Assembly: GCA_027574665.1 (NCBI GenBank)
Contig: CM050656.1
Location: 13,777,501-13,841,500 of the forward strand
Length of the DNA: 64,000 nt
Direction of reading: 5' to 3'
Source: Rhynochetos jubatus
Lineage: Eukaryota > Chordata > Aves > Eurypygiformes > Rhynochetidae
The position numbers and the translations under genes were made by a program. Under the pieces are notes generated by a model. The model was not told the DNA's origin. It saw nothing but the letters and a program-made list of their open reading frames with translations, and made no database searches. This document shows positions 1 through 64,000 of this stretch, piece after piece; within the stretch, counting starts at the first letter, position 1; every line of letters starts with the position of its first letter.

Positions 1-27
1 ATGTCGGTGCAGTGTCGTGCTCGTCTT

Positions 28-52
28 GGCAGGCCTTTGCAATCCCAATTAT
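28..52 (+). other. Almost invariant core of the unit
   Basis: This stretch runs from GGCAGGCC through TTGCAAT and CCAATTAT. Across about 365 units I see very few changes inside it: AGGACTTTGC near 42802, TTGCAAACC near 34895, GCAACCCC near 60218, and the linked CCTGGCAGG change in the five-copy cassette just upstream. Flanking positions 23 and 53 and the telomeric tract vary in tens of units, so the core stands out as conserved. It resembles no CENP-B box that I can see. It could bind a protein or could simply have escaped mutation before the last rounds of amplification. Confidence 0.5.
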
Positions 53-70
53 CCCTGGAGCTGTGGGCTT

Positions 71-84
71 TCTGGTTCTCCAGA
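71..84 (+). other. Short hairpin abutting the telomeric tract
   Basis: TCTGG, loop TTCT, CCAGA: a 5 bp perfect stem with a 4 nt loop whose last base directly precedes the first telomeric hexamer. It recurs in nearly every unit. Occasional stem changes are seen (G to C at about 18555 and 34401, G to T at about 34753, TCTGCAGA forms at about 20804, 22530, 25130 and 31436, CTCTAGA at about 37921 and 42674), and none is compensated on the other arm. The element may therefore be incidental. Confidence 0.5.
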
Positions 85-108
85 CCCTAACCCTAACCCT
101 AACCCTAG
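85..108 (+). repeat. Embedded telomere-like tract (representative)
   Basis: Three CCCTAA hexamers plus CCCTAG, read on the + strand. The minus strand therefore reads CTAGGG followed by three TTAGGG: four GGG runs spaced by TTA, the minimum for an intramolecular telomeric G-quadruplex. It also gives three matches to the YTAGGGTTR consensus of vertebrate TRF1/TRF2 Myb domains. An equivalent tract lies in every unit of the array. The common variants are CCGTAA as the third hexamer (about 67 units), loss of one hexamer (16 units), and single changes such as TAAGCC near 2201 and 34098 or CTTAACC near 27412, 28116 and 41102. Binding and folding are inferred from motif matches only. Confidence 0.93.
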
Positions 109-131
109 AAGTTGCCGACGGCGGTTTCCGG

Positions 132-146
132 CCACGCCCCCCGTGG
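132..146 (+). other. C-loop inverted repeat CCACG-C5-CGTGG
   Basis: A 5 bp perfect inverted repeat (CCACG and CGTGG) flanks five C residues; the left arm with its following bases forms CCACGCCC, which resembles the KLF/Sp GC-box class. This is the most variable site of the unit. The frequent alternatives replace the right arm: C8 followed by GGGTTC (for example near 1551, 8060, 44145), C8 followed by GCGTTC (near 5065, 11050, 28341), ACCCACGCGTTGTGG (17570, 35694, 36046, 39914) and AACCACGCGTTCTGG (26759, 27815, 30268, 41149). The alternatives abolish the inverted repeat or shift it. Any regulatory role is speculative. Confidence 0.45.
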
Positions 147-3100
147 GTTCTGGCTAGGAAAGCTGGGGAGGGAGCCATGTCGGTGCAGTGTCGTGCTCCT
201 CTTGGCAGGCCTTTGCAATCCCAATTATCCCTGGAGCTGTGGGCTTTCTGGTTCTCCAGACCCTAACCCTAACCCTAACCCTAGAAGTTGCCGACGGCGG
301 TTTCCGGCCACGCCCCCCGTGGGTTCTGGCTAGGAAAGCTGGGGAGGGAGCCATGTCGGTGCAGTGTCGTGCTCGTCTTGGCAGGCCTTTGCAATCCCAA
401 TTATCCCTGGAGCTGTGGGCTTTCTGGTTCTCCAGACCCTAACCCTAACCGTAACCCTAGAAGTTGCCGACGGCGGTTTCCGGCCACGCCCCCCGTGGGT
501 TCTGGCTAGGAAAGCTGGGGAGGGAGCCATGTCGGTGCAGTGTCGTGCTCCTCTTGGCAGGCCTTTGCAATCCCAATTATCCCTGGAGCTGTGGGCTTTC
601 TGGTTCTCCAGACCCTAACCCTAACCCTAACCCTAGAAGTTGCCGACGGCGGTTTCCGGCCACGCCCCCCGTGGGTTCTGGCTAGGAAAGGTGGGGAGGG
701 AGCCATGTCGGTGCAGTGTCGTGCTCGTCTTGGCAGGCCTTTGCAATCCCAATTATCCCTGGAGCTGTGGGCTTTCTGGTTCTCCAGACCCTAACCCTAA
801 CCCTAACCCTAGAAGTTGCCGACGGCGGTTTCCGGCCACGCCCCCCGTGGGTTCTGGCTAGGAAAGCTGGGGAGGGAGCCATGTCGGTGCAGTGTCGTGC
901 TCGTCTTGGCAGGCCTTTGCAATCCCAATTATCCCTGGAGCTGTGGGCTTTCTGGTTCTCCAGACCCTAACCCTAACCCTAACCCTAGAAGTTGCCGACG
1001 GCGGTTTCCGGCCACGCCCCCCGTGGGTTCTGGCTAGGAAAAGTGGGGAGGGAGCCATGTCGGTGCAGTGTCGTGCTCCTCTTGGCAGGCCTTTGCAATC
1101 CCAATTATCCCTGGAGCTGTGGGCTTTCTGGTTCTCCAGACCCTAACCCTAACCCTAACCCTAGAAGTTGCCGACGGCGGTTTCCGGCCACGCCCCCCGT
1201 GGGTTCTGGCTAGGAAAGCTGGGGAGGGAGCCATGTCGGTGCAGTGTCGTGCTCCTCTTGGCAGGCCTTTGCAATCCCAATTATCCCTGGAGCTGTGGGC
1301 TTTCTGGTTCTCCAGACCCTAACCCTAACCCTAACCCTAGAAGTTGCCGCCGGCGGTTTCCGGCCACGCCCCCCGTGGGTTCTGGCTAGGAAAGCTGGGG
1401 AGGGAGCCATGTCGGTGCAGTGTCGTGCTCCTCTTGGCAGGCCTTTGCAATCCCAATTATCCCTGGAGCTGTGGGCTTTCTGGTTCTCCAGACCCTAACC
1501 CTAACCCTAACCCTAGAAGTTGCCGACGGCGGTTTCCGGCCACGCCCCCCCCGGGTTCTGGCTAGGAAAGCTGGGGAGGGAGCCATGTCGGTGCAGTGTC
1601 GTGCTCCTCTTGGCAGGCCTTTGCAATCCCAATTATCCCTGGAGCTGTGGGCTTTCTGGTTCTCCAGACCCTAACCCTAACCCTAACCCTAGAAGTTGCC
1701 GACGGCGGTTTCCGGCCACGCCCCCCGTGGGTTCTGGCTAGGAAAGCTGGGGAGGGAGCCATGTCGGTGCAGTGTCGTGCTCCTCTTGGCAGGCCTTTGC
1801 AATCCCAATTATGCCTGGAGCTGTGGGCTTTCTGGTTCTCCAGACCCTAACCCTAACCGTAACCCTAGAAGTTGCCGACGGCGGTTTCCGGCCACGCCCC
1901 CCGTGGGTTCTGGCTAGGAAAGCTGGGGAGGGAGCCATGTCGGTGCAGTGTCGTGCTCCTCTTGGCAGGCCTTTGCAATCCCAATTATCCCTGGAGCTGT
2001 GGGCTTTCTGGTTTTCCAGACCCTAACCCTAACCCTAACCCTAGAAGTTGCCGACGGCGGTTTCCGGCCACGCCCCCCGTGGGTTCTGGCTAGGAAAGCT
2101 GGGGAGGGAGCCATGTCGGTGCAGTGTCGTGCTCCTCTTGGCAGGCCTTTGCAATCCCAATTATCCTTGGAGCTGTGGGCTTTCTGGTTCTCCAGACCCT
2201 AAGCCTAACCCTAACCCTAGAAGTTGCCGACGGCGGTTTCCGGCCACGCCCCCCGTGGGTTCTGGCTAGGAAAGCTGGGGAGGGAGCCATGTCGGTGCAG
2301 TGTCGTGCTCCTCTTGGCAGGCCTTTGCAATCCCAATTATCCCTGGAGCTGTGGGCTTTCTGGTTCTCCAGACCCTAACCCTAACCCTAACCCTAGAAGT
2401 TGCCGACGGCGGTTTCCGGCCACGCCCCCCGTGGGTTCTGGCTAGGAAAAGTGGGGAGGGAGCCATGTCGGTGCAGTGTCGTGCTCCTCTTGGCAGGCCT
2501 TTGCAATCCCAATTATCCCTGGAGCTGTGGGCTTTCTGGTTCTCCAGACCCTAACCCTAACCCTAACCCTAGAAGTTGCCGACGGCGGTTTCCGGCCACG
2601 CCCCCCGTGGGTTCTGGCTAGGAAAGCTGGGGAGGGAGCCATGTCGGTGCAGTGTCGTGCTCCTCTTGGCAGGCCTTTGCAATCCCAATTATCCCTGGAG
2701 CTGTGGGCTTTCTGGTTCTCCAGACCCTAACCCTAACCCTAACCCTAGAAGTTGCCGACGGCGGTTTCCGGCCACGCCCCCCGTGGGTTCTGGCTAGGAA
2801 AGCTGGGGAGGGAGCCATGTCGGTGCAGTGTCGTGCTCCTCTTGGCAGGCCTTTGCAATCCCAATTATCCCTGGAGCTGTGGGCTTTCTGGTTCTCCAGA
2901 CCCTAACCCTAACCCTAACCCTAGAAGTTGCCGACGGCGGTTTCCGGCCACGCCCCCCGTGGGTTCTGGCTAGGAAAGCTGGGGAGGGAGCCATGTCGGT
3001 GCAGTGTCGTGCTCGTCTTGGCAGGCCTTTGCAATCCCAATTATCCCTGGAGCTGTGGGCTTTCTGGTTCTCCAGACCCTAACCCTAACCCTAACCCTAG

Positions 3101-3168
3101 AAGTTGCCGACGGCGGTTTCCGGCCACGCCCCCCGTGGGTTCTGGCTAGGAAAGCTGGGGAGGGAGCC

Positions 3169-6100
3169 ATGTCGGTGCAGTGTCGTGCTCCTCTTGGCAG
3201 GCCTTTGCAATCCCAATTATCCCTGGAGCTGTGGGCTTTCTGGTTCTCCAGACCCTAACCCTAACCCTAACCCTAGAAGTTGCCGACGGCGGTTTCCGGC
3301 CACGCCCCCCGTGGGTTCTGGCTAGGAAAAGTGGGGAGGGAGCCATGTCGGTGCAGTGTCGTGCTCGTCTTGGCAGGCCTTTGCAATCCCAATTATCCCT
3401 GGAGCTGTGGGCTTTCTGGTTCTCCAGACCCTAACCCTAACCCTAACCCTAGAAGTTGCCGACGGCGGTTTCCGGCCACGCCCCCCGTGGGTTCTGGCTA
3501 GGAAAGCTGGGGAGGGAGCCATGTCGGTGCAGTGTCGTGCTCCTCTTGGCAGGCCTTTGCAATCCCAATTATCCCTGGAGCTGTGGGCTTTCTGGTTCTC
3601 CAGACCCTAACCCTAACCCTAACCCTAGAAGTTGCCGACGGCGGTTTCCGGCCACGCCCCCCGTGGGTTCTGGCTAGGAAAGCTGGGGAGGGAGCCATGT
3701 CGGTGCAGTGTCGTGCTCCTCTTGGCAGGCCTTTGCAATCCCAATTATCCCTGGAGCTGTGGGCTTTCTGGTTCTCCAGACCCTAACCCTAACCCTAACC
3801 CTAGAAGTTGCCGACGGCGGTTTCCGGCCACGCCCCCCGTGGGTTCTGGCTAGGAAAGCTGGGGAGGGAGCCATGTCGGTGCAGTGTCGTGCTCCTCTTG
3901 GCAGGCCTTTGCAATCCCAATTATCCCTGGAGCTGTGGGCTTTCTGGTTCTCCAGACCCTAACCCTAACCCTAACCCTAGAAGTTGCCGACGGCGGTTTC
4001 CGGCCACGCCCCCCGTGGGTTCTGGCTAGGAAAGCTGGGGAGGGAGCCATGTCGGTGCAGTGTCGTGCTCGTCTTGGCAGGCCTTTGCAATCCCAATTAT
4101 CCCTGGAGCTGTGGGCTTTCTGGTTCTCCAGACCCTAACCCTAACCCTAACCCTAGAAGTTGCCGACGGCGGTTTCCGGCCACGCCCCCCGTGGGTTCTA
4201 GCTAGGAAAGCTGGGGAGGGAGCCATGTCGGTGCAGTGTCGTGCTCCTCTTGGCAGGCCTTTGCAATCCCAATTATCCCTGGAGCTGTGGGCTTTCTGGT
4301 TCTCCAGACCCTAACCCTAACCCTAACCCTAGAAGTTGCCGACGGCGGTTTCCGGCCACGCCCCCCGTGGGTTCTGGCTAGGAAAGCTGGGGAGGGAGCC
4401 ATGTCGGTGCAGTGTCGTGCTCCTCTTGGCAGGCCTTTGCAATCCCAATTATCCCTGGAGCTGTGGGCTTTCTGGTTCTCCAGACCCTAACCCTAACCCT
4501 AACCCTAGAAGTTGCCGACGGCGGTTTCCGGCCACGCCCCCCCCGGGTTCTGGCTAGGAAAGCTGGGGAGGGAGCCATGTCGGTGCAGTGTCGTGCTCCT
4601 CTTGGCAGGCCTTTGCAATCCCAATTATCCCTGGAGCTGTGGGCTTTCTGGTTCTCCAGACCCTAACCCTAACCCTAACCCTAGAAGTTGCCGACGGCGG
4701 TTTCCGGCCACGCCCCCCGTGGGTTCTGGCTAGGAAAGCTGGGGAGGGAGCCATGTCGGTGCAGTGTCGTGCTCCTCTTGGCAGGCCTTTGCAATCCCAA
4801 TTATCCCTGGAGCTGTGGGCTTTCTGGTTCTCCAGACCCTAACCCTAACCCTAACCCTAGAAGTTGCCGACGGCGGTTTCCGGCCACGCCCCCCGTGGGT
4901 TCTGGCTAGGAAAGCTGGGGAGGGAGCCATGTCGGTGCAGTGTCGTGCTCCTCTTGGCAGGCCTTTGCAATCCCAATTATCCCTGGAGCTGTGGGCTTTC
5001 TGGTTCTCCAGACCCTAACCCTAACCCTAACCCTAGAAGTTGCCGACGGCGGTTTCCGGCCACGCCCCCCCCGCGTTCTGGCTAGGAAAGCTGGGGAGGG
5101 AGCCATGTCGGTGCAGTGTCGTGCTCCTCTTGGCAGGCCTTTGCAATCCCAATTATCCCTGGAGCTGTGGGCTTTCTGGTTCTCCAGACCCTAACCCTAA
5201 CCGTAACCCTAGAAGTTGCCGACGGCGGTTTCCGGCCACGCCCCCCGTGGGTTCTGGCTAGGAAAGCTGGGGAGGGAGCCATGTCGGTGCAGTGTCGTGC
5301 TCCTCTTGGCAGGCCTTTGCAATCCCAATTATCCCTGGAGCTGTGGGCTTTCTGGTTCTCCAGACCCTAACCCTAACCCTAACCCTAGAAGTTGCCGACG
5401 GCGGTTTCCGGCCACGCCCCCCCCGCGTTCTGGCTAGGAAAGCTGGGGAGGGAGCCATGTCGGTGCAGTGTCGTGCTCCTCTTGGCAGGCCTTTGCAATC
5501 CCAATTATCCCTGGAGCTGTGGGCTTTCTGGTTCTCCAGACCCTAACCCTAACCCTAACCCTAGAAGTTGCCGACGGCGGTTTCCGGCCACGCCCCCCGT
5601 GGGTTCTGGCTAGGAAAGCTGGGGAGGGAGCCATGTCGGTGCAGTGTCGTGCTCCTCTTGGCAGGCCTTTGCAATCCCAATTATCCCTGGAGCTGTGGGC
5701 TTTCTGGTTCTCCAGACCCTAACCCTAACCCTAACCCTAGAAGTTGCCGACGGCGGTTTCCGGCCACGCCCCCCGTGGGTTCTGGCTAGGAAAGCTGGGG
5801 AGGGAGCCATGTCGGTGCAGTGTCGTGCTCCTCTTGGCAGGCCTTTGCAATCCCAATTATCCCTGGAGCTGTGGGCTTTCTGGTTCTCCAGACCCTAACC
5901 CTAACCCTAACCCTAGAAGTTGCCGACGGCGGTTTCCGGCCACGCCCCCCGTGGGTTCTGGCTAGGAAAGCTGGGGAGGGAGCCATGTCGGTGCAGTGTC
6001 GTGCTCCTCTTGGCAGGCCTTTGCAATCCCAATTATCCCTGGAGCTGTGGGCTTTCTGGTTCTCCAGACCCTAACCCTAACCCTAACCCTAGAAGTTGCC

Positions 6101-9100
6101 GACGGCGGTTTCCGGCCACGCCCCCCCCGCGTTCTGGCTAGGAAAGCTGGGGAGGGAGCCATGTTGGTGCAGTGTCGTGCTCCTCTTGGCAGGCCTTTGC
6201 AATCCCAATTATCCCTGGAGCTGTGGGCTTTCTGGTTCTCCAGACCCTAACCCTAACCCTAACCCTAGAAGTTGCCGACGGCGGTTTCCGGCCACGCCCC
6301 CCGTGGGTTCTGGCTAGGAAAGCTGGGGAGGGAGCCATGTCAGTGCAGTGTCGTGCTCCTCTTGGCAGGCCTTTGCAATCCCAATTATCCCTGGAGCTGT
6401 GGGCTTTCTGGTTCTCCAGACCCTAACCCTAACCCTAACCCTAGAAGTTGCCGACGGCGGTTTCCGGCCACGCCCCCCGTGGGTTCTGGCTAGGAAAGCT
6501 GGGGAGGGAGCCATGTCGGTGCAGTGTCGTGCTCCTCTTGGCAGGCCTTTGCAATCCCAATTATGCCTGGAGCTGTGGGCTTTCTGGTTCTCCAGACCCT
6601 AACCCTAACCCTAACCCTAGAAGTTGCCGACGGCGGTTTCCGGCCACGCCCCCCGTGGGTTCTGGCTAGGAAAGCTGGGGAGGGAGCCATGTCGGTGCAG
6701 TGTCGTGCTCCTCTTGGCAGGCCTTTGCAATCCCAATTATCCCTGGAGCTGTGGGCTTTCTGGTTCTCCAGACCCTAACCCTAACCCTAACCCTAGAAGT
6801 TGCCGACGGCGGTTTCCGGCCACGCCCCCTGTGGGTTCTGGCTAGGAATGCTGGCGAGGGAGCCATGTCGGTGCAGTGTCGTGCTCCTCTTGGCAGGCCT
6901 TTGCAATCCCAATTATCCCTGGAGCTGTGGGCTTTCTGGTTCTCCAGACCCTAACCCTAACCCTAACCCTAGAAGTTGCCGACGGCGGTTTCCGGCCACG
7001 CCCCCCGTGGGTTCTGGCTAGGAAAGCTGGGGAGGGAGCCATGTCGGTGCAGTGTCGTGCTCCTCTTGGCAGGCCTTTGCAATCCCAATTATCCCTGGAG
7101 CTGTGGGCTTTCTGGTTCTCCAGACCCTAACCCTAACCCTAACCCTAGAAGTTGCCGACGGCGGTTTCCGGCCACGCCCCCCGTGGGTTCTGGCTAGGAA
7201 AGCTGGGGAGGGAGCCATGTCGGTGCAGTGTCGTGCTCCTCTTGGCAGGCCTTTGCAATCCCAATTATCCCTGGAGCTGTGGGCTTTCTGGTTCTCCAGA
7301 CCCTAACCCTAACCCTAACCCTAGAAGTTGCCGACGGCGGTTTCCGGCCACGCCCCCCGTGGGTTCTGGCTAGGAATGCTGGCGAGGGAGCCATGTCGGT
7401 GCAGTGTCGTGCTCCTCTTGGCAGGCCTTTGCAATCCCAATTATCCCTGGAGCTGTGGGCTTTCTGGTTCTCCAGACCCTAACCCTAACCCTAACCCTAG
7501 AAGTTGCCGACGGCGGTTTCCGGCCACGCCCCCCGTGGGTTCTGGCTAGGAAAGGTGGGGAGGGAGCCATGTCGGTGCAGTGTCGTGCTCCTCTTGGCAG
7601 GCCTTTGCAATCCCAATTATGCCTGGAGCTGTGGGCTTTCTGGTTCTCCAGACCCTAACCCTAACCCTAACCCTAGAAGTTGCCGACGGCGGTTTCCGGC
7701 CACGCCCACCGTGGGTTCTGGCTAGGAAAGCTGGGGAGGGAGCCATGTCGGTGCAGTGTCGTGCTCCTCTTGGCAGGCCTTTGCAATCCCAATTATCCCT
7801 GGAGCTGTGGGCTTTCTGGTTCTCCAGACCCTAACCCTAACCCTAACCCTAGAAGTTGCCGACGGCGGTTTCCGGCCACGCCCCCCGTGGGTTCTGGCTA
7901 GGAATGCTGGCGAGGGAGCCATGTCGGTGCAGTGTCGTGCTCCTCTTGGCAGGCCTTTGCAATCCCAATTATCCCTGGAGCTGTGGGCTTTCTGGTTCTC
8001 CAGACCCTAACCCTAACCCTAACCCTAGAAGTTGCCGACGGCGGTTTCCGGCCACGCCCCCCCCGGGTTCTGGCTAGGAAAGCTGGGGAGGGAGCCATGT
8101 CGGTGCAGTGTCGTGCTCCTCTTGGCAGGCCTTTGCAATCCCAATTATCCCTGGAGCTGTGGGCTTTCTGGTTCTCCAGACCCTAACCCTAACCCTAACC
8201 CTAGAAGTTGCCGACGGCGTTTTCCGGCCACGCCCCCCGTGGGTTCTGGCTAGGAAAGCTGGGGAGGGAGCCATGTCGGTGCAGTGTCGTGCTCCTCTTG
8301 GCAGGCCTTTGCAATCCCAATTATCCCTGGAGCTGTGGGCTTTCTGGTTCTCCAGACCCTAACCCTAACCCTAACCCTAGAAGTTGGCGACGGCGGTTTC
8401 CGGCCACGCCCCCCGTGGGTTCTGGCTAGGAAAGCTGGGGAGGGAGCCATGTCGGTGCAGTGTCGTGCTCCTCTTGGCAGGCCTTTGCAATCCCAATTAT
8501 CCCTGGAGCTGTGGGCTTTCTGGTTCTCCAGACCCTAACCCTAACCCTAACCCTAGAAGTTGCCGACGGCGGTTTCCGGCCACGCCCCCCGTGGGTTCTG
8601 GCTAGGAAAGCTGGGGAGGGAGCCATGTCGGTGCAGTGTCGTGCTCCTCTTGGCAGGCCTTTGCAATCCCAATTATCCCTGGAGCTGTGGGCTTTCTGGT
8701 TCTCCAGACCCTAACCCTAACCCTAACCCTAGAAGTTGCCGACGGCGGTTTCCGGCCACGCCCCCCGTGGGTTCTGGCTAGGAATGCTGGCGAGGGAGCC
8801 ATGTCGGTGCAGTGTCGTGCTCCTCTTGGCAGGCCTTTGCAATCCCAATTATCCCTGGAGCTGTGGGCTTTCTGGTTCTCCAGACCCTAACCCTAACCCT
8901 AACCCTAGAAGTTGCCGACGGCGGTTTCCGGCCACGCCCCCCGTGGGTTCTGGCTAGGAAAGCTGGGGAGGGAGCCATGTCGGTGCAGTGTCGTGCTCCT
9001 CTTGGCAGGCCTTTGCAATCCCAATTATCCCTGGAGCTGTGGGCTTTCTGGTTCTCCAGACCCTAACCCTAACCCTAACCCTAGAAGTTGCCGACGGCGG

Positions 9101-9152
9101 TTTCCGGCCACGCCCCCCGTGGGTTCTGGCTAGGAAAGCTGGGGAGGGAGCC
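3169..9152 (+). repeat. Large duplicated block, copy A (34 units)
   Basis: A long ordered series of unit tags here reappears in copy B. Matching tags at an offset of 6,160 bp (35 units) include AAAAGTGGGG at about 3327, G at position 23 of the units at 3345 and 4049, GTTCTAGCTAGG at about 4197 and C8-GGG at about 4551. The offset drops to 5,984 bp for the series C8-GCG 5065, C8-GCG 6122 with ATGTTGG 6163, GTCAGTG 6339 and CCCCTGTGGG 6826, then returns to 6,160 bp for GGAATGCTGGCG 7375, AAAGGTGGGG 7551, GCCCACCG 7706, GGCGTTTTCC 8217 and TTGGCGACG 8385. The offset shifts show loss and gain of single whole units. Confidence 0.85.
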
Positions 9153-9328
9153 ATGTCGGTGCAGTGTCGTGCTCCTCTTGGCAGGCCTTTGCAATCCCAA
9201 TTATCCCTGGAGCTGTGGGCTTTCTGGTTCTCCAGACCCTAACCCTAACCCTAACCCTAGAAGTTGCCGACGGCGGTTTCCGGCCACGCCCCCCGTGGGT
9301 TCTGGCTAGGAAAAGTGGGGAGGGAGCC

Positions 9329-15300: not shown

Positions 15301-15312
15301 GGGGAGGGAGCC
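9329..15312 (+). repeat. Large duplicated block, copy B (34 units)
   Basis: This is the second copy of the tag series in 3169-9152, separated from it by one unit (9153-9328). GTTCTAGCTAGG recurs at about 10357, GTCAGTG at about 12323, CCCCTGTGGG at about 12810, GCCCACCG at about 13866, GGCGTTTTCC at about 14377 and TTGGCGACG at about 14545. Copy B has picked up changes absent from copy A: CCGTAA hexamers near 13299, 13827, 14707 and 15059, ATGTGGGTGC at about 12850, and ATTATGCC near 11844. One unit is missing relative to A near 10.8 kb and one is extra near 13.2 kb. The block is therefore an old tandem duplication being reworked unit by unit. Confidence 0.85.
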
Positions 15313-19360: not shown

Positions 19361-20042
19361 ATGTCGGTGCAGTGTCGTGCTCGTCTTGGCAGGCCTTTGC
19401 AATCCCAATTATCCCTGGAGCTGTGGGCTTTCTGGTTCTCCAGACCCTAACCCTAACCCTAACCCTAGAAGTTGCCGACGGCGGTTTCCGGCCACGCCCC
19501 CTGTGGATTCTGGCTAGGAAAGCTGGGGAGGGAGCCATGTCGGTGCAGTGTCGTGCTCCTCTTGGCAGGCCTTTGCAATCCCAATTATCCCTGGAGCTGT
19601 GGGCTTTCTGGTTCTCCAGACCCTAACCCTAACCCTAACCCTAGAAGTTGCCGACGGCGGTTTCCGGCCACGCCCCCTGTGGGTTCTGGCTAGGAAAGCT
19701 GGGGAGGGAGCCATGTCGGTGCAGTGTCGTGCTCCTCTTGGCAGGCCTTTGCAATCCCAATTATCCCTGGAGCTGTGGGCTTTCTGGTTCTCCAGACCCT
19801 AACCCTAACCGTAACCCTAGAAGTTGCCGACGGCGGTTTCCGGCCACGCCCCCCGTGGGTTCTGGCTAGGAAAGCTGGGGAGGGAGCCATGTCGGTGCAG
19901 TGTCGTGCTCCTCTTGGCAGGCCTTTGCAATCCCAATTATCCCTGGAGCTGTGGGCTTTCTGGTTCTCCAGACCCTAACCCTAACCCTAACCCTAGAAGT
20001 TGCCCCCCGTGGGTTCTGGCTAGGAAAGCTGGGGAGGGAGCC
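19361..20042 (+). repeat. 682 bp four-unit block, copy 1
   Basis: Three 176 bp units and one 154 bp unit. Tags in order: G at position 23 with CCCCTGTGGATTC, CCCCTGTGGGTTC, CCGTAA with the standard right arm, then the short unit 19889-20042 that lacks 22 bp. The same four units in the same order follow immediately at 20043-20724. Confidence 0.9.
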
Positions 20043-21252: not shown

Positions 21253-23154
21253 ATGTCGGTGCAGTGTCGTGCTCCTCTTGGCAGGCCTTTGCAATCCCAA
21301 TTATCCCTGGAGCTGTGGGCTTTTTGGTTCTCCAGACCCTAACCCTAACCCCAGAAGTTGCCGTAGGCGGTTTCCGGCCACGCCCCCCGTGGGTTCTGGC
21401 TAGGAAAGCTGGGGAGGGAGCCATGTCGGTGCAGTGTCGTGCTCCTCTTGGCAGGCCTTTGCAATCCCAATTATCCCTGGAGCTGTGGGCTTTCTGGTTC
21501 TCCAGACCCTAACCCTAACCCTAACCCTAGAAGTTGCCGACGGCGGTTTCCGGCCACGCCCCCCGTGGGTTCTGGCTAGGAAAGCTGGGGAGGGAGCCAT
21601 GTCGGTGCAGTGTCGTGCTCCTCTTGGCAGGCCTTTGCAATCCCAATTATCCCTGGAGCTGTGGGCTTTCTGGTTCTCCAGACCCTAACCCTAACCGTAA
21701 CCCTAGAAGTTGCCGACGGCGGTTTCCGGCCACGCCCCCTGTGGGTTCTGGCTAGGAAAGCTGGGGAGGGAGCCATGTCGGTGCAGTGTCGTGCTCGTCT
21801 TGGCAGGCCTTTGCAATCCCAATTATCCCTGGAGCTGTGGGCTTTCTGGTTCTCCAGACCCTAACCCTAACCGTAACCCTAGAAGTTGCCGACGGCGGTT
21901 TCCGGCCACGCCCCCCGTGGGTTCTGGCTAGGAAAGCTGGGGAGGGAGCCATGTCGGTGCAGTCTCGTGCTCCTCTTGGCAGGCCTTTGCAATCCCAATT
22001 ATCCCTGGAGCTGTGGGCTTTCTGGTTCTCCAGACCCTAACCCTAACCCCAGAAGTTGCCGACGGCGGTTTCCGGCCACGCCCCCCGTGGGTTCTGGCTA
22101 GGAAAGCTGGGGAGGGAGCCATGTCGGTGCAGTGTCGTGCTCGTCTTGGCAGGCCTTTGCAATCCCAATTATCCCTGGAGCTGTGGGCTTTCTGGTTCTC
22201 CAGACCCTAACCCTAACCCTAACCCTAGAAGTTGCCGACGGCGGTTTCCGGCCACGCCCCCCGTGGGTTCTGGCTAGGAAAGCTGGGGAGGGAGCCATGT
22301 CGGTGCAGTGTCGTGCTCCTCTTGGCAGGCCTTTGCAATCCCAATTATCCCTGGAGCTGTGGGCTTTCTGGTTCTCCAGACCCTAACCCTAACCCTAACC
22401 CTAGAAGTTGCCCCCCGTGGGTTCTGGCTAGGAAAGCTGGGGAGGGAGCCATGTCGGTGCAGTGTCGTGCTCCTCTTGGCAGGCCTTTGCAATCCCAATT
22501 ATCCCTGGAGCTGTGGGCTTTCTGGTTCTGCAGACCCTAACCCTAACCGTAACCCTAGAAGTTGCCGACGGCGGTTTCCGGCCACGCCCCCCGTGGGTTC
22601 TGGCTAGGAAAGCTGGGGAGGGAGCCATGTCGGTGCAGTGTCGTGCTCCTCTTGGCAGGCCTTTGCAATCCCAATTATCCCTGGAGCTGTGGGCTTTCTG
22701 GTTCTCCAGACCCTAACCCTAACCCTAACCCTAGAAGTTGCCGACGGCGGTTTCCGGCCACGCCCCCCGTGGGTTCTGGCTAGGAAAGCTGGGGAGGGAG
22801 CCATGTCGGTGCAGTGTCGTGCTCGTCTTGGCAGGCCTTTGCAATCCCAATTATCCCTGGAGCTGTGGGCTTTCTGGTTCTCCAGACCCTAACCCTAACC
22901 CTAACCCTAGAAGTTGCCGACGGCGGTTTCCGGCCACGCCCCCCGTGGGTTCTGGCTAGGAAAGCTGGGGAGGGAGCCATGTCGGTGCAGTGTCGTGCTC
23001 CTCTTGGCAGGCCTTTGCAATCCCAATTATGCCTGGAGCTGTGGGCTTTCTGGTTCTCCAGACCCTAACCCTAACCGTAACCCTAGAAGTTGCCGACGGC
23101 GGTTTCCGGCCACGCCCCCCGTGGGTTCTGGCTAGGAAAGCTGGGGAGGGAGCC
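21253..23154 (+). repeat. 1,902 bp 11-unit higher-order repeat, copy 1
   Basis: Eleven units: eight of 176 bp, two of 170 bp (21253 and 21951) and one of 154 bp (22297). Both 170 bp units have two CCCTAA hexamers followed by CCCCAG. Ordered tags: TTTTTGG with GCCGTAGGC in the first unit, then standard, CCGTAA with CCCCTGTGGG, G23 with CCGTAA, CAGTCTCGTG (21951), G23, the 154 bp unit, TCTGCAGACC, standard, G23, and ATTATGCC with CCGTAA. The series restarts at 23155, and the same first-unit tags recur at 25755. Confidence 0.92.
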
Positions 23155-46995: not shown

Positions 46996-47523
46996 ATGTC
47001 GGTGCAGTGTCGTGCTCCTCTTGGCAGGCCTTTGCAATCCCAATTATCCCTGGAGCTGTGGGCTTTCTGGTTCTCCAGACCCTAACCCTAACCCTAACCC
47101 TAGAAGTTGCCGACGGCGGTTTCCGGCCACGCCCCCCCCGGGTTCTGGCTAGGAAAGCTGGGGAGGGAGCCATGTCGGTGCAGTGTCGTATTCCTCTTGG
47201 CAGGCCTTTGCAATCCCAATTATCCCTGGAGCTGTGGGCTTTCTGGTTCTCCAGACCCTAACCCTAACCCTAACCCTAGAAGTTGCCGACGGCGGTTTCC
47301 GGCCACGCCCCCCGTGGGTTCTGGCTAGGAAAGCTGGGGAGGGAGCCATGTCGGTGCAGTGTCGTGCTCCTCTTGGCAGGCCTTTGCAATCCCAATTATC
47401 CCTGGAGCTGTGGGCTTTCTGGTTCTCCAGACCCTAACCCTAACCCTAACCCTAGAAGTTGCCGACGGCGGTTTCCGGCCACGCCCCCCGTGGGTTCTGG
47501 CTAGGAAAGCTGGGGAGGGAGCC

Positions 47524-54500: not shown

Positions 54501-54915
54501 GCCGACGGCGGTTTCCGGCCACGCCCCCCGTGGGTTCTGGCTAGGAAAAGTGGGGAGGGAGCCATGTCGGTGCAGTGTCGTGCTCCTCTTGGCAGGCCTT
54601 TGCAATCCCAATTATCCCTGGAGCTGTGGGCTTTCTGGTTCTCCAGACCCTAACCCTAACCCTAACCCTAGAAGTTGCCGACGGCGGTTTCCGGCCACGC
54701 CCCCCGTGGGTTCTGGCTAGGAAAGCTGGGGAGGGAGCCATGTCGGTGCAGTGTCGTGCTCGTCTTGGCAGGCCTTTGCAATCCCAATTATCCCTGGAGC
54801 TGTGGGCTTTCTGGTTCTCCAGACCCTAACCCTAACCCTAACCCTAGAAGTTGCCGACGGCGGTTTCCGGCCACGCCCCCCGTGGGTTCTGGCTAGGAAA
54901 GCTGGGGAGGGAGCC
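51572..54915 (+). repeat. 4,048 bp block, copy 2, contracted by two units
   Basis: Repeats the tags of 47524-51571: GTGTGGTGC at the start, CCCGGGAGGTG at 52680 and 54088, and AAAAGTCGGGAGG at about 53138, exactly 4,048 bp after its partner. Between AAAAGTCGGG and the second cassette there are two fewer units, so the offset falls to 3,696 bp. The right limit is uncertain because the tags end in consensus units; 54740 is the last unit with G23. Confidence 0.88.
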
Positions 54916-57900
54916 ATGTCGGTGCAGTGTCGTGCTCCTCTTGGCAGGCCTTTGCAATCCCAATTATCCCTGGAGCTGTGGGCTTTCTGGTTCTCCAGAC
55001 CCTAACCCTAACCCTAACCCTAGAAGTTGCCGACGGCGGTTTCCGGCCACGCCCCCCGTGGGTTCTGGCTAGGAAAGCTGGGGAGGGAGCCATGTCGGTG
55101 CAGTGTCGTGCTCCTCTTGGCAGGCCTTTGCAATCCCAATTATCCCTGGAGCTGTGGGCTTTCTGGTTCTCCAGACCCTAACCCTAACCCTAACCCTAGA
55201 AGTTGCCGACGGCGGTTTCCGGCCACGCCCCCCGTGGGTTCTGGCTAGGAAAGCTGGGGAGGGAGCCATGTCGGTGCAGTGTCGTGCTCCTCTTGGCAGG
55301 CCTTTGCAATCCCAATTATCCCTGGAGCTGTGGGCTTTCTGGTTCTCCAGACCCTAACCCTAACCCTAACCCTAGAAGTTGCCGACGGCGGTTTCCGGCC
55401 ACGCCCCCCGTGGGTTCTGGCTAGGAAAGCTGGGGAGGGAGCCATGTCGGTGCAGTGTCGTGCTCCTCTTGGCAGGCCTTTGCAATCCCAATTATCCCTG
55501 GAGCTGTGGGCTTTCTGGTTCTCCAGACCCTAACCCTAACCCTAACCCTAGAAGTTGCCGACGGCGGTTTCCGGCCACGCCCCCCGTGGGTTCTGGCTAG
55601 GAAAGCTGGGGAGGGAGCCATGTCGGTGCAGTGTCGTGCTCCTCTTGGCAGGCCTTTGCAATCCCAATTATCCCTGGAGCTGTGGGCTTTCTGGTTCTCC
55701 AGACCCTAACCCTAACCCTAACCCTAGAAGTTGCCGACGGCGGTTTCCGGCCACGCCCCCCGTGGGTTCTGGCTAGGAAAGCTGGGGAGGGAGCCATGTC
55801 GGTGCAGTGTCGTGCTCCTCTTGGCAGGCCTTTGCAATCCCAATTATCCCTGGAGCTGTGGGCTTTCTGGTTCTCCAGACCCTAACCCTAACCCTAACCC
55901 TAGAAGTTGCCGACGGCGGTTTCCGGCCACGCCCCCCGTGGGTTCTGGCTAGGAAAGCTGGGGAGGGAGCCATGTCGGTGCAGTGTCGTGCTCCTCTTGG
56001 CAGGCCTTTGCAATCCCAATTATCCCTGGAGCTGTGGGCTTTCTGGTTCTCCAGACCCTAACCCTAACCCTAACCCTAGAAGTTGCCGACGGCGGTTTCC
56101 GGCCACGCCCCCCGTGGGTTCTGGCTAGGAAAGCTGGGGAGGGAGCCATGTCGGTGCAGTGTCGTGCTCCTCTTGGCAGGCCTTTGCAATCCCAATTATC
56201 CCTGGAGCTGTGGGCTTTCTGGTTCTCCAGACCCTAACCCTAACCCTAACCCTAGAAGTTGCCGACGGCGGTTTCCGGCCACGCCCCCCGTGGGTTCTGG
56301 CTAGGAAAGCTGGGGAGGGAGCCATGTCGGTGCAGTGTCGTGCTCCTCTTGGCAGGCCTTTGCAATCCCAATTATCCCTGGAGCTGTGGGCTTTCTGGTT
56401 CTCCAGACCCTAACCCTAACCCTAACCCTAGAAGTTGCCGACGGCGGTTTCCGGCCACGCCCCCCGTGGGTTCTGGCTAGGAAAGCTGGGGAGGGAGCCA
56501 TGTCGGTGCAGTGTCGTGCTCCTCTTGGCAGGCCTTTGCAATCCCAATTATCCCTGGAGCTGTGGGCTTTCTGGTTCTCCAGACCCTAACCCTAACCCTA
56601 ACCCTAGAAGTTGCCGACGGCGGTTTCCGGCCACGCCCCCCGTGGGTTCTGGCTAGGAAAGCTGGGGAGGGAGCCATGTCGGTGCAGTGTCGTGCTCCTC
56701 TTGGCAGGCCTTTGCAATCCCAATTATCCCTGGAGCTGTGGGCTTTCTGGTTCTCCAGACCCTAACCCTAACCCTAACCCTAGAAGTTGCCGACGGCGGT
56801 TTCCGGCCACGCCCCCCGTGGGTTCTGGCTAGGAAAGCTGGGGAGGGAGCCATGTCGGTGCAGTGTCGTGCTCCTCTTGGCAGGCCTTTGCAATCCCAAT
56901 TATCCCTGGAGCTGTGGGCTTTCTGGTTCTCCAGACCCTAACCCTAACCCTAACCCTAGAAGTTGCCGACGGCGGTTTCCGGCCACGCCCCCCGTGGGTT
57001 CTGGCTAGGAAAGCTGGGGAGGGAGCCATGTCGGTGCAGTGTCGTGCTCCTCTTGGCAGGCCTTTGCAATCCCAATTATCCCTGGAGCTGTGGGCTTTCT
57101 GGTTCTCCAGACCCTAACCCTAACCCTAGAAGTTGCCGACGGCGGTTTCCGGCCACGCCCCCCGTGGGTTCTGGCTAGGAAAGCTGGGGAGGGAGCCATG
57201 TCGGTGCAGTGTCGTGCTCCTCTTGGCAGGCCTTTGCAATCCCAATTATCCCTGGAGCTGTGGGCTTTCTGGTTCTCCAGACCCTAACCCTAACCCTAGA
57301 AGTTGCCGACGGCGGTTTCCGGCCACGCCCCCCGTGGGTTCTGGCTAGGAAAGCTGGGGAGGGAGCCATGTCGGTGCAGTGTCGTGCTCCTCTTGGCAGG
57401 CCTTTGCAATCCCAATTATCCCTGGAGCTGTGGGCTTTCTGGTTCTCCAGACCCTAACCCTAACCCTAACCCTAGAAGTTGCCGACGGCGGTTTCCGGCC
57501 ACGCCCCCCGTGGGTTCTGGCTAGGAAAGCTGGGGAGGGAGCCATGTCGGTGCAGTGTCGTGCTCCTCTTGGCAGGCCTTTGCAATCCCAATTATCCCTG
57601 GAGCTGTGGGCTTTCTGGTTCTCCAGACCCTAACCCTAACCCTAACCCTAGAAGTTGCCGACGGCGGTTTCCGGCCACGCCCCCCGTGGGTTCTGGCTAG
57701 GAAAGCTGGGGAGGGAGCCATGTCGGTGCAGTGTCGTGCTCCTCTTGGCAGGCCTTTGCAATCCCAATTATCCCTGGAGCTGTGGGCTTTCTGGTTCTCC
57801 AGACCCTAACCCTAACCCTAGAAGTTGCCGACGGCGGTTTCCGGCCACGCCCCCCGTGGGTTCTGGCTAGGAAAGCTGGGGAGGGAGCCATGTCGGTGCA

Positions 57901-59297
57901 GTGTCGTGCTCCTCTTGGCAGGCCTTTGCAATCCCAATTATCCCTGGAGCTGTGGGCTTTCTGGTTCTCCAGACCCTAACCCTAACCCTAACCCTAGAAG
58001 TTGCCGACGGCGGTTTCCGGCCACGCCCCCCGTGGGTTCTGGCTAGGAAAGCTGGGGAGGGAGCCATGTCGGTGCAGTGTCGTGCTCCTCTTGGCAGGCC
58101 TTTGCAATCCCAATTATCCCTGGAGCTGTGGGCTTTCTGGTTCTCCAGACCCTAGCCCTAACCCTAACCCTAGAAGTTGCCGACGGCGGTTTCCGGCCAC
58201 GCCCCCCGTGGGTTCTGGCTAGGAAAGCTGGGGAGGGAGCCATGTCGGTGCAGTGTCGTGCTCCTCTTGGCAGGCCTTTGCAATCCCAATTATCCCTGGA
58301 GCTGTGGGCTTTCTGGTTCTCCAGACCCTAACCCTAACCCTAACCCTAGAAGTTGCCGACGGCGGTTTCCGGCCACGCCCCCCGTGGGTTCTGGCTAGGA
58401 AAGCTGGGGAGGGAGCCATGTCGGTGCAGTGTCGTGCTCCTCTTGGCAGGCCTTTGCAATCCCAATTATCCCTGGAGCTGTGGGCTTTCTGGTTCTCCAG
58501 ACCCTAACCCTAACCCTAACCCTAGAAGTTGCCGACGGCGGTTTCCGGCCACGCCCCCCGTGGGTTCTGGCTAGGAAAGCTGGGGAGGGAGCCATGTCGG
58601 TGCAGTGTCGTGCTCCTCTTGGCAGGCCTTTGCAATCCCAATTATCCCTGGAGCTGTGGGCTTTCTGGTTCTCCAGACCCTAACCCTAACCCTAACCCTA
58701 GAAGTTGCCGACGGCGGTTTCCGGCCACGCCCCCCGTGGGTTCTGGCTAGGAAAGCTGGGGAGGGAGCCATGTCGGTGCAGTGTCGTGCTCCTCTTGGCA
58801 GGCCTTTGCAATCCCAATTATCCCTGGAGCTGTGGGCTTTCTGGTTCTCCAGACCCTAACCCTAACCCTAACCCTAGAAGTTGCCGACGGCGGTTTCCGG
58901 CCACGCCCCCCGTGGGTTCTGGCTAGGAAAGCTGGGGAGGGAGCCATGTCGGTGCAGTGTCGTGCTCCTCTTGGCAGGCCTTTGCAATCCCAATTATCCC
59001 TGGAGCTGTGGGCTTTCTGGTTCTCCAGACCCTAACCCTAACCCTAACCCTAGAAGTTGCCGACGGCGGTTTCCGGCCACGCCCCCCGTGGGTTCTGGCT
59101 AGGAAAGCTGGGGAGGGAGCCATGTCGGTGCAGTGTCGTGCTCCTCTTGGCAGGCCTTTGCAATCCCAATTATCCCTGGAGCTGTGGGCTTTCTGGTTCT
59201 CCAGACCCTAACCCTAACCCTAACCCTAGAAGTTGCCGACGGCGGTTTCCGGCCACGCCCCCCGTGGGTTCTGGCTAGGAAAGCTGGGGAGGGAGCC
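54916..59297 (+). repeat. Homogeneous domain, 25 almost identical units
   Basis: Twelve consecutive 176 bp units from 54916 to 57027 show no difference that I can find from the consensus or from each other. The next 13 units differ only by clean loss of one hexamer in three of them (57028, 57198 and 57720, each 170 bp) and one TAGCCC change at 58155. CCGTAA, ATTATGCC, G23 and right-arm variants are all absent. This is the least diverged part of the window and is best explained by very recent local amplification or conversion; assembly collapse or expansion of identical units cannot be excluded. Confidence 0.88.
57028..57197 (+). repeat. 170 bp unit, clean one-hexamer loss (representative)
   Basis: Two CCCTAA hexamers followed by CCCTAG, so exactly one hexamer is missing and nothing else differs from consensus. 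The same form occurs at 57198, 57720, 60354 (with two extra bases in the C-tract, 172 bp), 60702 and 63687. It is distinct from the CCCCAG type of 170 bp unit found only between 21.2 and 37.3 kb. Only three GGG runs remain on the minus strand. Confidence 0.92.
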
Positions 59298-62200
59298 ATG
59301 TCGGTGCAGTGTCGTGCTCCTCTTGGCAGGCCTTTGCAATCCCAATTATCCCTGGAGCTGTGGGCTTTCTGGTTCTCCAGACCCTAACCCTAACCGTAAC
59401 CCTAGAAGTTGCCGACGGCGGTTTCCGGCCACGCCCCCCCCGGGTTCTGGCTAGGAAAGCTGGGGAGGGAGCCATGTCGGTGCAGTGTCGTGCTCCTCTT
59501 GGCAGGCCTTTGCAATCCCAATTATCCCTGGAGCTGTGGGCTTTCTGGTTCTCCAGACCCTAACCCTAACCCTAACCCTAGAAGTTGCCGACGGCGGTTT
59601 CCGGCCACGCCCCCCGTGGGTTCTGGCTAGGAAAGCTGGGGAGGGAGCCATGTCGGTGCAGTGTCGTGCTCCTCTTGGCAGGCCTTTGCAATCCCAATTA
59701 TCCCTGGAGCTGTGGGCTTTCTGGTTCTCCAGACCCTAACCCTAACCCTAACCCTAGAAGTTGCCGACGGCGGTTTCCGGCCACGCCCCCCGTGGGTTCT
59801 GGCTAGGAAAGCTGGGGAGGGAGCCATGTCGGTGCAGTGTCGTGCTCCTCTTGGCAGGCCTTTGCAATCCCAATTATCCCTGGAGCTGTGGGCTTTCTGG
59901 TTCTCCAGACCCTAACCCTAACCCTAACCCTAGAAGTTGCCGACGGCGGTTTCCGGCCACGCCCCCCGTGGGTTCTGGCTAGGAAAGCTGGGGAGGGAGC
60001 CATGTCGGTGCAGTGTCGTGCTCCTCTTGGCAGGCCTTTGCAATCCCAATTATCCCTGGAGCTGTGGGCTTTCTGGTTCTCCAGACCCTAACCCTAACCC
60101 TAACCCTAGAAGTTGCCGACGGCGGTTTCCGGCCACGCCCCCCGTGGGTTCTGGCTAGGAAAGCTGGGGAGGGAGCCATGTCGGTGCAGTGTCGTGCTCC
60201 TCTTGGCAGGCCTTTGCAACCCCAATTATCCCTGGAGCTGTGGGCTTTCTGGTTCTCCAGACCCTAACCCTAACCGTAACCCTAGAAGTTGCCGACGGCG
60301 GTTTCCGGCCACGCCCCCCGTGGGTTCTGGCTAGGAAAGCTGGGGAGGGAGCCATGTCGGTGCAGTGTCGTGCTCCTCTTGGCAGGCCTTTGCAATCCCA
60401 ATTATCCCTGGAGCTGTGGGCTTTCTGGTTCTCCAGACCCTAACCCTAACCCTAGAAGTTGCCGACGGCGGTTTCCGGCCACGCCCCCCCTGTGGGTTCT
60501 GGCTAGGAAAGCTGGGGAGGGAGCCATGTCGGTGCAGTGTCGTGCTCCTCTTGGCAGGCCTTTGCAATCCCAATTATCCCTGGAGCTGTGGGCTTTCTGG
60601 TTCTCCAGACCCTAACCCTAACCCTAACCCTAGAAGTTGCCGATGGCGGTTTCCGGCCACGCCCCCCGTGGGTTCTGGCTAGGAAAGCTGGGGAGGGAGC
60701 CATGTCGGTGCAGTGTCGTGCTCCTCTTGGCAGGCCTTTGCAATCCCAATTATCCCTGGAGCTGTGGGCTTTCTGGTTCTCCAGACCCTAACCCTAACCC
60801 TAGAAGTTGCCGACGGCGGTTTCCGGCCACGCCCTCCGTGGGTTCTGGCTAGGAAAGCTGGGGAGGGAGCCATGTCGGTGCAGTGTCGTGCTCCTCTTGG
60901 CAGGCCTTTGCAATCCCAATTATCCCTGGAGCTGTGGGCTTTCTGGTTCTCCAGACCCTAACCCTAACCCTAACCGTAGAAGTTGCCGATGGCGGTTTCC
61001 GGCCACGCCCCCCCCGGGTTCTGGCTAGGAAAGCTGGGGAGGGAGCCATGTCGGTGCAGTGTCGTGCTCCTCTTGGCAGGCCTTTGCAATCCCAATTATC
61101 GCTGGAGCTGTGGGCTTTCTGGTTCTCCAGACCCTAACCCTAACCCTAACCCTAGAAGTTGCCGATGGCGGTTTCCGGCCACGCCCCCCGTGGGTTCTGG
61201 CTAGGAAAGCTGGGGAGGGAGCCATGTCGGTGCAGTGTCGTGCTCCTCTTGGCAGGCCTTTGCAATCCCAATTATCCCTGGAGCTGTGGGCTTTCTGGTT
61301 CTCCAGACCCTAACCCTAACCCTAACCCTAGAAGTTGCCGACGGCGGTTTCCGGCCACGCCCCCCGTGGGTTCTGGCTAGGAAAGCTGGGGAGGGAGCCA
61401 TGTCGGTGCAGTGTCGTGCTCCTCTTGGCAGGCCTTTGCAATCCCAATTATCCCTGGAGCTGTGGGCTTTCTGGTTCTCCAGACCCTAACCCTAACCCTA
61501 ACCCTAGAAGTTGCCGACGGCGGTTTCCGGCCACGCCCCCCGTGGGTTCTGGCTAGGAAAGCTGGGGAGGGAGCCATGTCGGTGCAGTGTCGTGCTCCTC
61601 TTGGCAGGCCTTTGCAATCCCAATTATCCCTGGAGCTGTGGGCTTTCTGGTTCTCCAGACCCTAACCCTAACCCTAACCCTAGAAGTTGCCGCTGGCGGT
61701 TTCCGGCCACGCCCCCCGTGGGTTCTGGCTAGGAAAGCTGGGGAGGGAGCCATGTCGGTGCAGTGTCGTGCTCCTCTTGGCAGGCCTTTGCAATCCCAAT
61801 TATCCCTGGAGCTGTGGGCTTTCTGGTTCTCCAGACCCTAACCCTAACCCTAACCCTAGAAGTTGCCGACCGCGGATCCGGCCACGCCCCCCCCGGGTTC
61901 TGGCTAGGAAAGCTGGGGAGGGAGCCATGTCGGTGCAGTGTCGTGCTCCTCTTGGCAGGCCTTTGCAATCCCAATTATCCCTGGAGCTGTGGGCTTTCTG
62001 GTTCTCCAGACCCTAACACTAACCCTAACCCTAGAAGTTGCCGACCGCGGATCCGGCCACGCCCCCCGTGGGTTCTGGCTAGGAAAGCTGGGGAGGGAGC
62101 CATGTCGGTGCAGTCTCGTGCTCCTCTTGGCAGGCCTTTGCAATCCCAATTATCCCTGGAGCTGTGGGCTTTCTGGTTCTCCAGACCCTAACCCTAACCC

Positions 62201-64000
62201 TAACCCTAGAAGTTGCCGACGGCGGTTTCCGGCCACGCCCCCCGTGGGTTCTGGCTAGGAAAGCTGGGGAGGGAGCCATGTCGGTGCAGTGTCGTGCTCC
62301 TCTTGGCAGGCCTTTGCAATCCCAATTATCCCTGGAGCTGTGGGCTTTCTGGTTCTCCAGACCCTAACCCTAACCCTAACCCTAGAAGTTGCCGACGGCG
62401 GTTTCCGGCCACGCCCCCCGTGGGTTCTGGCTAGGAAAGCTGGGGAGGGAGCCATGTCGGTGCAGTGTCGTGCTCCTCTTGGCAGGCCTTTGCAATCCCA
62501 ATTATCCCTGGAGCTGTGGGCTTTCTGGTTCTCCAGACCCTAACCCTAACCCTAACCCTAGAAGTTGCCGACGGCGTTTTCCGGCCACGCCCCCCGTGGG
62601 TTCTGGCTAGGAAAGCTGGGGAGGGAGCCATGTCGGTGCAGTGTCGTGCTCCTCTTGGCAGGCCTTTGCAATCCCAATTATCCCTGGAGCTGTGGGCTTT
62701 CTGGTTCTCCAGACCCTAACCCTAACCCTAACCCTAGAAGTTGCCGACGGCGGTTTCCGGCCACGCCCCCCGTGGGTTCTGGCTAGGAAAGCTGGGGAGG
62801 GAGCCATGTCGGTGCAGTGTCGTGCTCCTCTTGGCAGGCCTTTGCAATCCCAATTATCCCTGGAGCTGTGGGCTTTCTGGTTCTCCAGACCCTAACCCTA
62901 ACCCTAACCCTAGAAGTTGCCGACGGCGGTTTCCGGCCACGCCCCCCCCGGGTTCTGGCTAGGAAAGCTGGGGAGGGAGCCATGTCGGTGCAGTCTCGTG
63001 CTCCTCTTGGCAGGCCTTTGCAATCCCAATTATCCCTGGAGCTGTGGGCTTTCTGGTTCTCCAGACCCTAACCCTAACCCTAACCCTAGAAGTTGCCGAC
63101 CGCGGATCCGGCCACGCCCCCCGTGGGTTCTGGCTAGGAAAGCTGGGGAGGGAGCCATGTCGGTGCAGTGTCGTGCTCCTCTTGGCAGGCCTTTGCAATC
63201 CCAATTATCCCTGGAGCTGTGGGCTTTCTGGTTCTCCAGACCCTAACCCTAACCCTAACCCTAGAAGTTGCCGACGGCGGTTTCCGGCCACGCCCCCCCC
63301 GGGTTCTGGCTAGGAAAGCTGGGGAGGGAGCCATGTCGGTGCAGTGTCGTGCTCCTCTTGGCAGGCCTTTGCAATCCCAATTATCCCTGGAGCTGTGGGC
63401 TTTCTGGTTCTCCAGACCCTAACCCTAACCGTAACCCTAGAAGTTGCCGACGGCGGTTTCCGGCCACGCCCCCCGTGGGTTCTGGCTAGGAAAGCTGGGG
63501 AGGGAGCCATGTCGGTGCAGTGTCGTGCTCCTCTTGGCAGGCCTTTGCAATCCCAATTATCCCTGGAGCTGTGGGCTTTCTGGTTCTCCAGACCCTAACC
63601 CTAACCCTAACCCTAGAAGTTGCCGACGGCGGTTTCCGGCCACGCCCCCCCCGTGGGTTCTGGCTAGGAAAGCTGGGGAGGGAGCCATGTCAGTGCAGTG
63701 TCGTGCTCCTCTTGGCAGGCCTTTGCAATCCCAATTATCCCTGGAGCTGTGGGCTTTCTGGTTCTCCAGACCCTAACCCTAACCCTAGAAGTTGCCGACG
63801 GCGGTTTCCGGCCACGCCCCCCGTGGGTTCTGGCTAGGAAAGCTGGGGAGGGAGCCATGTCGGTGCAGTGTCGTGCTCCTCTTGGCAGGCCTTTGCAATC
63901 CCAATTATCCCTGGAGCTGTGGGCTTTCTGGTTCTCCAGACCCTAACCCTAACCCTAACCCTAGAAGTTGCCGACGGCGGTTTCCGGCCACGCCCCCCGT
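59298..64000 (+). repeat. Right segment, diverged units of uneven length
   Basis: About 27 units with lengths of 170, 172, 175, 176 and 178 bp. Tags include CCGTAA at about 59396, 60276 and 63431, C8-GGG at about 59440, 61011, 61890, 62946 and 63297, GATGGC at about 60643, 60989 and 61165, GTAGAAG at about 60976, TATCGCTGG at about 61099, CGCTGGCGG at about 61691, CTAACACTAACC at about 62011, and GGCGTTTTCC at about 62575. The last unit starts at 63857 and is cut by the window edge after 144 bp, so the array continues to the right. Confidence 0.85.
61752..62101 (+). repeat. Two 175 bp units with GACCGCGGATCC replacement
   Basis: In two adjacent units (61752 and 61927) the CpG-dense stretch reads GACCGCGGATCCGG instead of GACGGCGGTTTCCGG: three substitutions' worth of change and one base lost. 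This creates overlapping SacII-like (CCGCGG) and BamHI-like (GGATCC, 61874 and 62049) palindromes. A third copy lies in the 175 bp unit at 62982 (GGATCC at 63104). The variant is seen nowhere else in the window. Confidence 0.92.

Follow-up and report, generated by a model that had tools for sequence, protein, structure and literature searches.

The DNA under study, referred to as the window, is the whole stretch of 64,000 nucleotides from the bird Rhynochetos jubatus, and corresponds to positions 13,777,501-13,841,500 of contig C11 (CM050656.1, 34.94 Mb) in an assembly of 1.331 Gb and 148 contigs. A beta-globin exon of this assembly matches vertebrate haemoglobins, with duck and ostrich chains scoring highest, which agrees with a bird genome, as do the genome size and the contig sizes. 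The window is made up of a satellite with a 176-bp unit, into which a short tract of telomere-type sequence is built. Tandem Repeats Finder returned a single array across positions 1-64000 (period 176, 364.8 copies, 96% matches), which bears out the continuous array of about 365 units described in the first-pass annotation, and the autocorrelation of the window is led by lag 176 and its multiples. The features are as follows.

1..64000, + strand: satellite array of the 176-bp unit, 364.8 copies; the window is about 22% of the 285-kb array on C11
1..176, + strand: first complete 176-bp unit as phased here, starting ATGTCGGTGCAG
85..107, + strand: telomere-type tract of this unit, with CCCTAA three times and then CCCTA(G), the G-rich strand being the - strand
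437..459, + strand: tract whose third hexamer is CCGTAA, the commonest variant
19889..20042, + strand: 154-bp unit that lacks 22 bp a few bases past the tract, one of five such units
21253..21422, + strand: 170-bp unit in which exactly one tract hexamer is lost

When units were delimited by anchors, 335 of the 364 complete ones measured exactly 176 bp, the remaining 29 being of 170 bp (16 units), 154 bp (5), 177 bp (3), 175 bp (3), 172 bp (1) and 178 bp (1). The full-length units diverge from their own consensus by 0.88% on average, and 124 distinct sequences occur among the 364; with an array that extends to about 285 kb, the claim of one homogenised unit continuing beyond 64 kb holds. Large tandem arrays, a nucleosome-sized monomer and homogenisation, as expected of a centromeric satellite, are thus all found. 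No higher-order repeat is evident in the window, the mean unit identity being flat (0.976-0.980 at lags 1-30 vs 0.977 for random pairs), and the 41-bp period of the avian CNM family is absent from its top 40 lags, a comparison made by period and not with CNM sequence. The CENP-B box of alphoid-type satellites has the motif NTTCGNNNNANNCGGGN; none was found on either strand of the doubled consensus, the closest stretch having four mismatches. Coding and RNA readings were rejected, as there is no stop-free frame of 150 codons within positions 1-5000 of the window and nothing reaches the gathering score of an RNA family within positions 1-3000. Six words of the unit sequence gave no printed match in the one open-access library searched, and this satellite did not appear among the papers listed there.

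In the consensus, three CCCTAA hexamers precede a CCCTAG, which gives a telomere-type tract of 23 bp, close to the 24 bp estimated at first, and the single orientation that had also been noted is confirmed: exact CCCTAA occurs 1,004 times on the + strand of the window and TTAGGG not once. This exact count replaces the earlier figure of about 1,100 hexamers, and compares with a mean of 12.1 and a maximum of 18 in 20 mononucleotide shuffles of the window. Three exact hexamers are present in 276 of the 364 units, two in 85 and one in 3, and the G of the CCGTAA-type variant is carried by 67 of the 335 full-length units. The tract loses and gains whole hexamers yet keeps its place in the unit, since the 6-bp losses fall in the tract as one hexamer in 17 of the 17 window units that have them, and since genome-wide 47,824 units (25,593 + 22,231) combine the exact tract with normal flanks and 3,443 tracts (1,664 + 1,779) are one hexamer longer. 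The longest CCCTAA run is of 3-4 hexamers in the window and in seven 10-kb samples of the C11 array, and within this scope the long hexamer runs of heterochromatic interstitial telomeric sequences (het-ITS) are not present. The 18-mer (CCCTAA)3 occurs 70,758 times in the assembly (37,824 + 32,934), and at least 54,710 of these, about 77%, sit within the satellite, counting one 18-mer per exact-tract unit and two per extended unit; the telomere-type DNA of the assembly is therefore mainly inside the satellite, the telomeres being possibly under-assembled. The window also holds 989 sites of the form YTAGGGTTR, which we take to be the TRF half-site, all on one strand and three per consensus unit; from these predicted sites, a telomere-like chromatin domain or a shelterin sink is possible.

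Samples and probes place the left edge of the array at 13.733-13.734 Mb and its right edge at 14.018-14.020 Mb of C11, which gives a span of about 285 kb, 39-40% along the contig and with non-satellite sequence on both sides. All seven 10-kb samples taken within it (13.74-14.01 Mb) consist fully of the 176-bp unit on the + strand. A second C11 array, also +, lies at 8.74-9.33 Mb, and between the two arrays seven further 10-kb samples (12.5-13.71 Mb) are all non-satellite, with 9.33-12.5 Mb outside the sampling. The left end of the contig starts with 2.5 kb of N, after which come 3.7 kb of CCCTAA repeats and then other sequence, and its first 10 kb contain neither 176-bp units nor the 472-bp satellite that forms the right end. 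The latter (C11:34935081-34938080, 99% self-identity at lag 472) is different from the 176-bp family. The subtelomeric location that had been proposed is ruled out for the window array (13.73-14.02 of 34.94 Mb) by its position 13.7 Mb from the C11 start, its non-satellite flanks and the other sequence at both C11 ends; elsewhere, arrays on C19, C21, C22 and C23 do extend to a contig end, some of them with no telomere visible there.

A 32-base core of the unit, present in 316 of the 364 window units, occurs 54,246 times genome-wide (28,980 + 25,266), which means at least this number of units and, at 176 bp each, at least 9.5 Mb. The arrays were mapped from the matches listed for rarer unit variants and from the best candidates of two DNA searches; their spans are minimum spans, set by the outermost matches or probes and not by tiling. 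By this mapping from sparse matches, 16 arrays of about 0.1-1.4 Mb each are located on 13 chromosome-sized contigs, with one array on ten of these and two on C11, C19 and C22. Besides those of C11, they are:

C13 (contig of 26.2 Mb): 8.37-9.81 Mb, + strand
C14: 16.10-17.47 Mb, - strand
C15: 15.37-15.59 Mb, - strand
C16: 7.07-8.08 Mb, + strand
C19: 0-0.29 Mb, and from between 20.45 and 20.50 Mb to the contig end, both - strand
C20: 0.14-0.63 Mb, + strand
C21: 17.54-18.04 Mb, - strand
C22: 0-0.70 Mb and 5.85-6.15 Mb, both + strand
C23: 14.20-14.71 Mb, - strand
C24: 3.30-3.44 Mb, + strand
C27: 9.10-9.31 Mb, - strand
C28: 9.99-10.09 Mb, - strand

Among the matches listed, strands are unmixed within each of the 13 contigs, and the C14 consensus is 96.6% identical to that of the window, with the tract unchanged. 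On C13 the array is interior and telomere repeats are found at both contig ends. C19 and C22 start inside an array, and the last bases of C19, C21 and C23 likewise belong to one (to diverged units in C21 and C23); the occurrence of arrays at both ends of C19 on the same strand may be real or a scaffolding error. One unbroken multi-megabase array on C22 was rejected, as nine of ten probes at 1.0-5.5 Mb are non-satellite and the other one (4.0 Mb) is N, and the C20 copies at 4.36 and 5.58 Mb are taken as strays because nine of nine probes at 0.8-6.0 Mb are non-satellite. The small contigs C122, C125, C128 and C144 contain arrays or array parts, and C35, C36, C80 and C119 have a few unit copies each.

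The matches listed for contigs C1-C8 (42.6-148.6 Mb) comprise ten strays or small clusters: one on C1 (a single 17-mer, maybe due to chance), two on C2, two on C4, three on C6 and two on C8, with none listed for C3, C5 and C7. Presence on all chromosomes, which is common for a centromeric satellite and not obligatory, is thus not observed. At 43.98 and 76.84 Mb of C2, a macrochromosome, there are small clusters of old unit copies, with about 75-82% identity in most aligned pieces, possibly relics of former centromeres. Of the tract positions in these old copies, 262 of 289 match, vs 80% elsewhere in the unit, a figure from which nothing was concluded, as the neighbouring block 20-80 is about as high and the alignment favours the tract.

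The CCCTAA strand is oriented like the telomere of the nearer contig end in 15 of the 16 arrays. When chromosomes are counted, the orientation agrees in 12 of 12, C19 being mixed because its arrays at both ends have the same strand, so that one must disagree with its nearer end. A two-sided binomial test gives p = 0.0005 for 12/12 and p = 0.0034 with C19 counted against, values which are descriptive, as the idea came from the same data as were tested. Left out of the 15/16 count are the strays of C1-C8 and C20 and the contigs C35, C36, C80, C119, C122, C125, C128 and C144; the C20 strays (2/2) and the copies on C35 and C36 (2/2) are oriented like the nearer end, and so are 6 of the 10 strays on C1-C8, about chance. 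These observations suggest a polarity rule and do not prove it. A second marker has the same direction: in the five chromosomes where both satellites were located (C11, C16, C20, C23, C27), the 472-bp one occupies the contig end more distant from the 176-bp array, the opposite end being free of a 472-bp match in C11, C16, C20 and C23, and C27 being judged from one end. This satellite occurs in reverse orientation where C23, C27, C29 and C33 start and in forward orientation where C16 and C20 end, which makes 6 of the 33 contig ends tested apart from C11 (a match being a score above half the maximum over 40-60 bases), and is probably the subtelomeric satellite of this genome.

We consider, with a probability of about 0.7, that the array is part of a centromeric or pericentromeric satellite of the intermediate and small chromosomes of this bird. 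This fits best because there are one or two sites on 13 smaller chromosomes, because the C13 array is interior and because contigs break off inside terminal arrays; indeed, contigs that begin (C19, C22) or end (C19, C21, C23) in an array are as expected of unfinished acrocentric short arms. Also in favour are the lack of large arrays among the matches listed for C1-C8, the unmixed strands, the unchanged tract of the C14 consensus, the different satellite at several contig ends and the chicken precedent described below. A nucleosome-sized monomer of 176/177 bp with a tract of about four hexamers would be homogenised chromosome by chromosome, and the arrays would underlie or flank the kinetochore. 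The tract may have originated where the short arms of acrocentric ancestors ended, and may have spread among non-homologous short arms via an exchange that keeps polarity. Inverted exchange between non-homologous chromosomes results in dicentric and acentric products, and a constant polarity is therefore expected if the short arms of non-homologous acrocentrics exchange. It is somewhat doubtful that the tract itself is functional at the putative centromere, where it may be a preferred site of CENP-A or shelterin chromatin, in parallel with seven chicken chromosomes that have (TTAGGG)n within their CNM arrays. Rather unlikely as a whole is the fuller proposal of a telomere-derived centromere, in which the telomere repeat that CENP-A occupies in satellite arrays of some chicken chromosomes was here captured into the monomer and amplified, about 50,000 copies in the assembly give the smaller chromosomes telomere-like centromeres, and the nearer-end polarity records both an acrocentric short-arm origin and non-homologous exchange.

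Several points weigh against a centromeric or pericentromeric satellite. Eleven contigs of 5.8-31.6 Mb (C12, C17, C18, C25, C26 and C29-C34) have no copies among the matches listed, which are thin, and the mapped spans, if full, would account for about 40,700 of the 54,246 cores, so that about a quarter of the units are without an assigned place. Of the two arrays each on C11, C19 and C22, at most one per chromosome can be the active centromere, and the unit has neither a higher-order repeat nor a CENP-B box, although neither is required. Within the window the tract diverges by 1.02% vs 0.86% for the rest of the unit, with no extra conservation and hence no selection visible on it. Arm lengths are judged from contigs alone. 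In respect to polarity, only one of the four small contigs (C122, C125, C128, C144) agrees; taken as equals and with C19 counted against, 13 of 17 agree (p = 0.049). We trust the count on the chromosome-sized contigs more, because the ends of small contigs need not be chromosome ends.

The two separate arrays on C11, with non-satellite samples between them, and those on C22, with nine non-satellite probes and one N between, would also be accounted for by non-centromeric interstitial heterochromatin spread among small chromosomes without kinetochore function. However, we judge this distinctly unlikely in view of the spread and position of the arrays, of a family common to small chromosomes, like CNM in chicken, and of contigs that break off inside arrays at chromosome ends. 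The telomere-type tract, the polarity that most arrays share with the nearer telomere and the chromosomes with two arrays would further be compatible with a fusion relic, in which a subtelomeric satellite was trapped by end-to-end or centric fusion. This is quite improbable: a within-array divergence below 1% needs ongoing homogenisation, another family is present at contig ends today, and no CCCTAA run longer than 3-4 hexamers occurs in the window or in any of the seven 10-kb samples, which cover the array short of its edges. Finally, a shelterin sink or a reservoir for recombination-based telomere maintenance, both raised in the first-pass annotation, agrees with the share of (CCCTAA)3 in the satellite (at least 54,710 of 70,758) and with the 989 YTAGGGTTR sites, but is very improbable for an interior array whose tract is merely 23 bp and interrupted by CCGTAA in 67 of 335 units, and the reservoir finds no support at the left telomere of C11, which has 3.7 kb of hexamers and no satellite unit in 10 kb.

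If the satellite is centromeric, the species would offer a natural test of whether centromeres derive from telomeric DNA, both kinds of sequence being joined in one unit, and a (CCCTAA)3 peptide nucleic acid probe, which fits once per full unit, is predicted to light the array sites. Interstitial telomere signals in such species would then represent satellite rather than scars of fusion, and reads would owe most of their telomere-type k-mers to sequence outside telomeres, biasing telomere-length estimates based on k-mers.

Other repeats were seen near contig ends. The C2 start (C2:1-3000) is a different tandem repeat of period 91/182, and a degenerate telomere-like run (CCCTAA, CCCGAA, CCTGAA, CCCAAA) lies at C2:134516000-134518000, about 1.27 Mb inside the C2 end. 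The starts of C20, C24 and C125 have in common a GC-rich short tandem repeat, GGGGCGGGGCTTAAGGGGCGAG-like as judged by eye.

In chicken, the acrocentric centromeres share CNM, which is also on chr6 and chr9, and sub- and metacentric macrochromosomes usually have repeats of their own; in seven chromosomes the CENP-A core consists of (TTAGGG)n embedded in CNM (PMC9974502). The satellite described here resembles CNM in being one family common to many small chromosomes, mostly absent from macrochromosomes and associated with the telomere repeat. It differs in its monomer (176 bp, not 41 bp), in a tract placed within the monomer whereas CNM has a separate (TTAGGG)n block, in the lack of a higher-order repeat and in several arrays being well inside the chromosome. 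With het-ITS (PMC6410037, PMC9693754) it shares abundant telomere-type DNA at interior sites; these are, however, pure-hexamer runs, as opposed to about 23 bp per 176-bp unit. Telomere hybridization (fluorescence in situ hybridization, FISH) in birds usually gives terminal signals alone, interstitial ones being frequent in chicken and palaeognaths, and in the frog Boana faber telomere motifs within centromeric satellite units were suggested from FISH (PMC9693754). Two nightingale species showed no interstitial telomere signal (PMC8687609).

Telomere-similar sequences in centromeres are part of the Villasante 2007 model, as told in PMC4620154, and appear in an Arabidopsis title among the references of PMC9498494. 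The present satellite, with telomere-like DNA at a putative centromere, is in line with that model; unlike there, the DNA is here within a homogenised monomer, with a polarity mostly tied to the nearer end. The polarity of the mouse TLC repeat and minor satellite is conserved. At mouse telocentric ends, as here, satellites are in a common order near the telomere on many chromosomes (PMC12597820), although TLC adjoins the telomere and many of the present arrays are interior, the two being compared by description and not by sequence. In a vertebrate survey, monomer lengths cluster mainly near 171 bp and 94% of the satellite families belong to a single species (PMC13320880), and for this reason a private 176-bp family is ordinary. 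What stands out is the telomere tract within the unit, together with its polarity.

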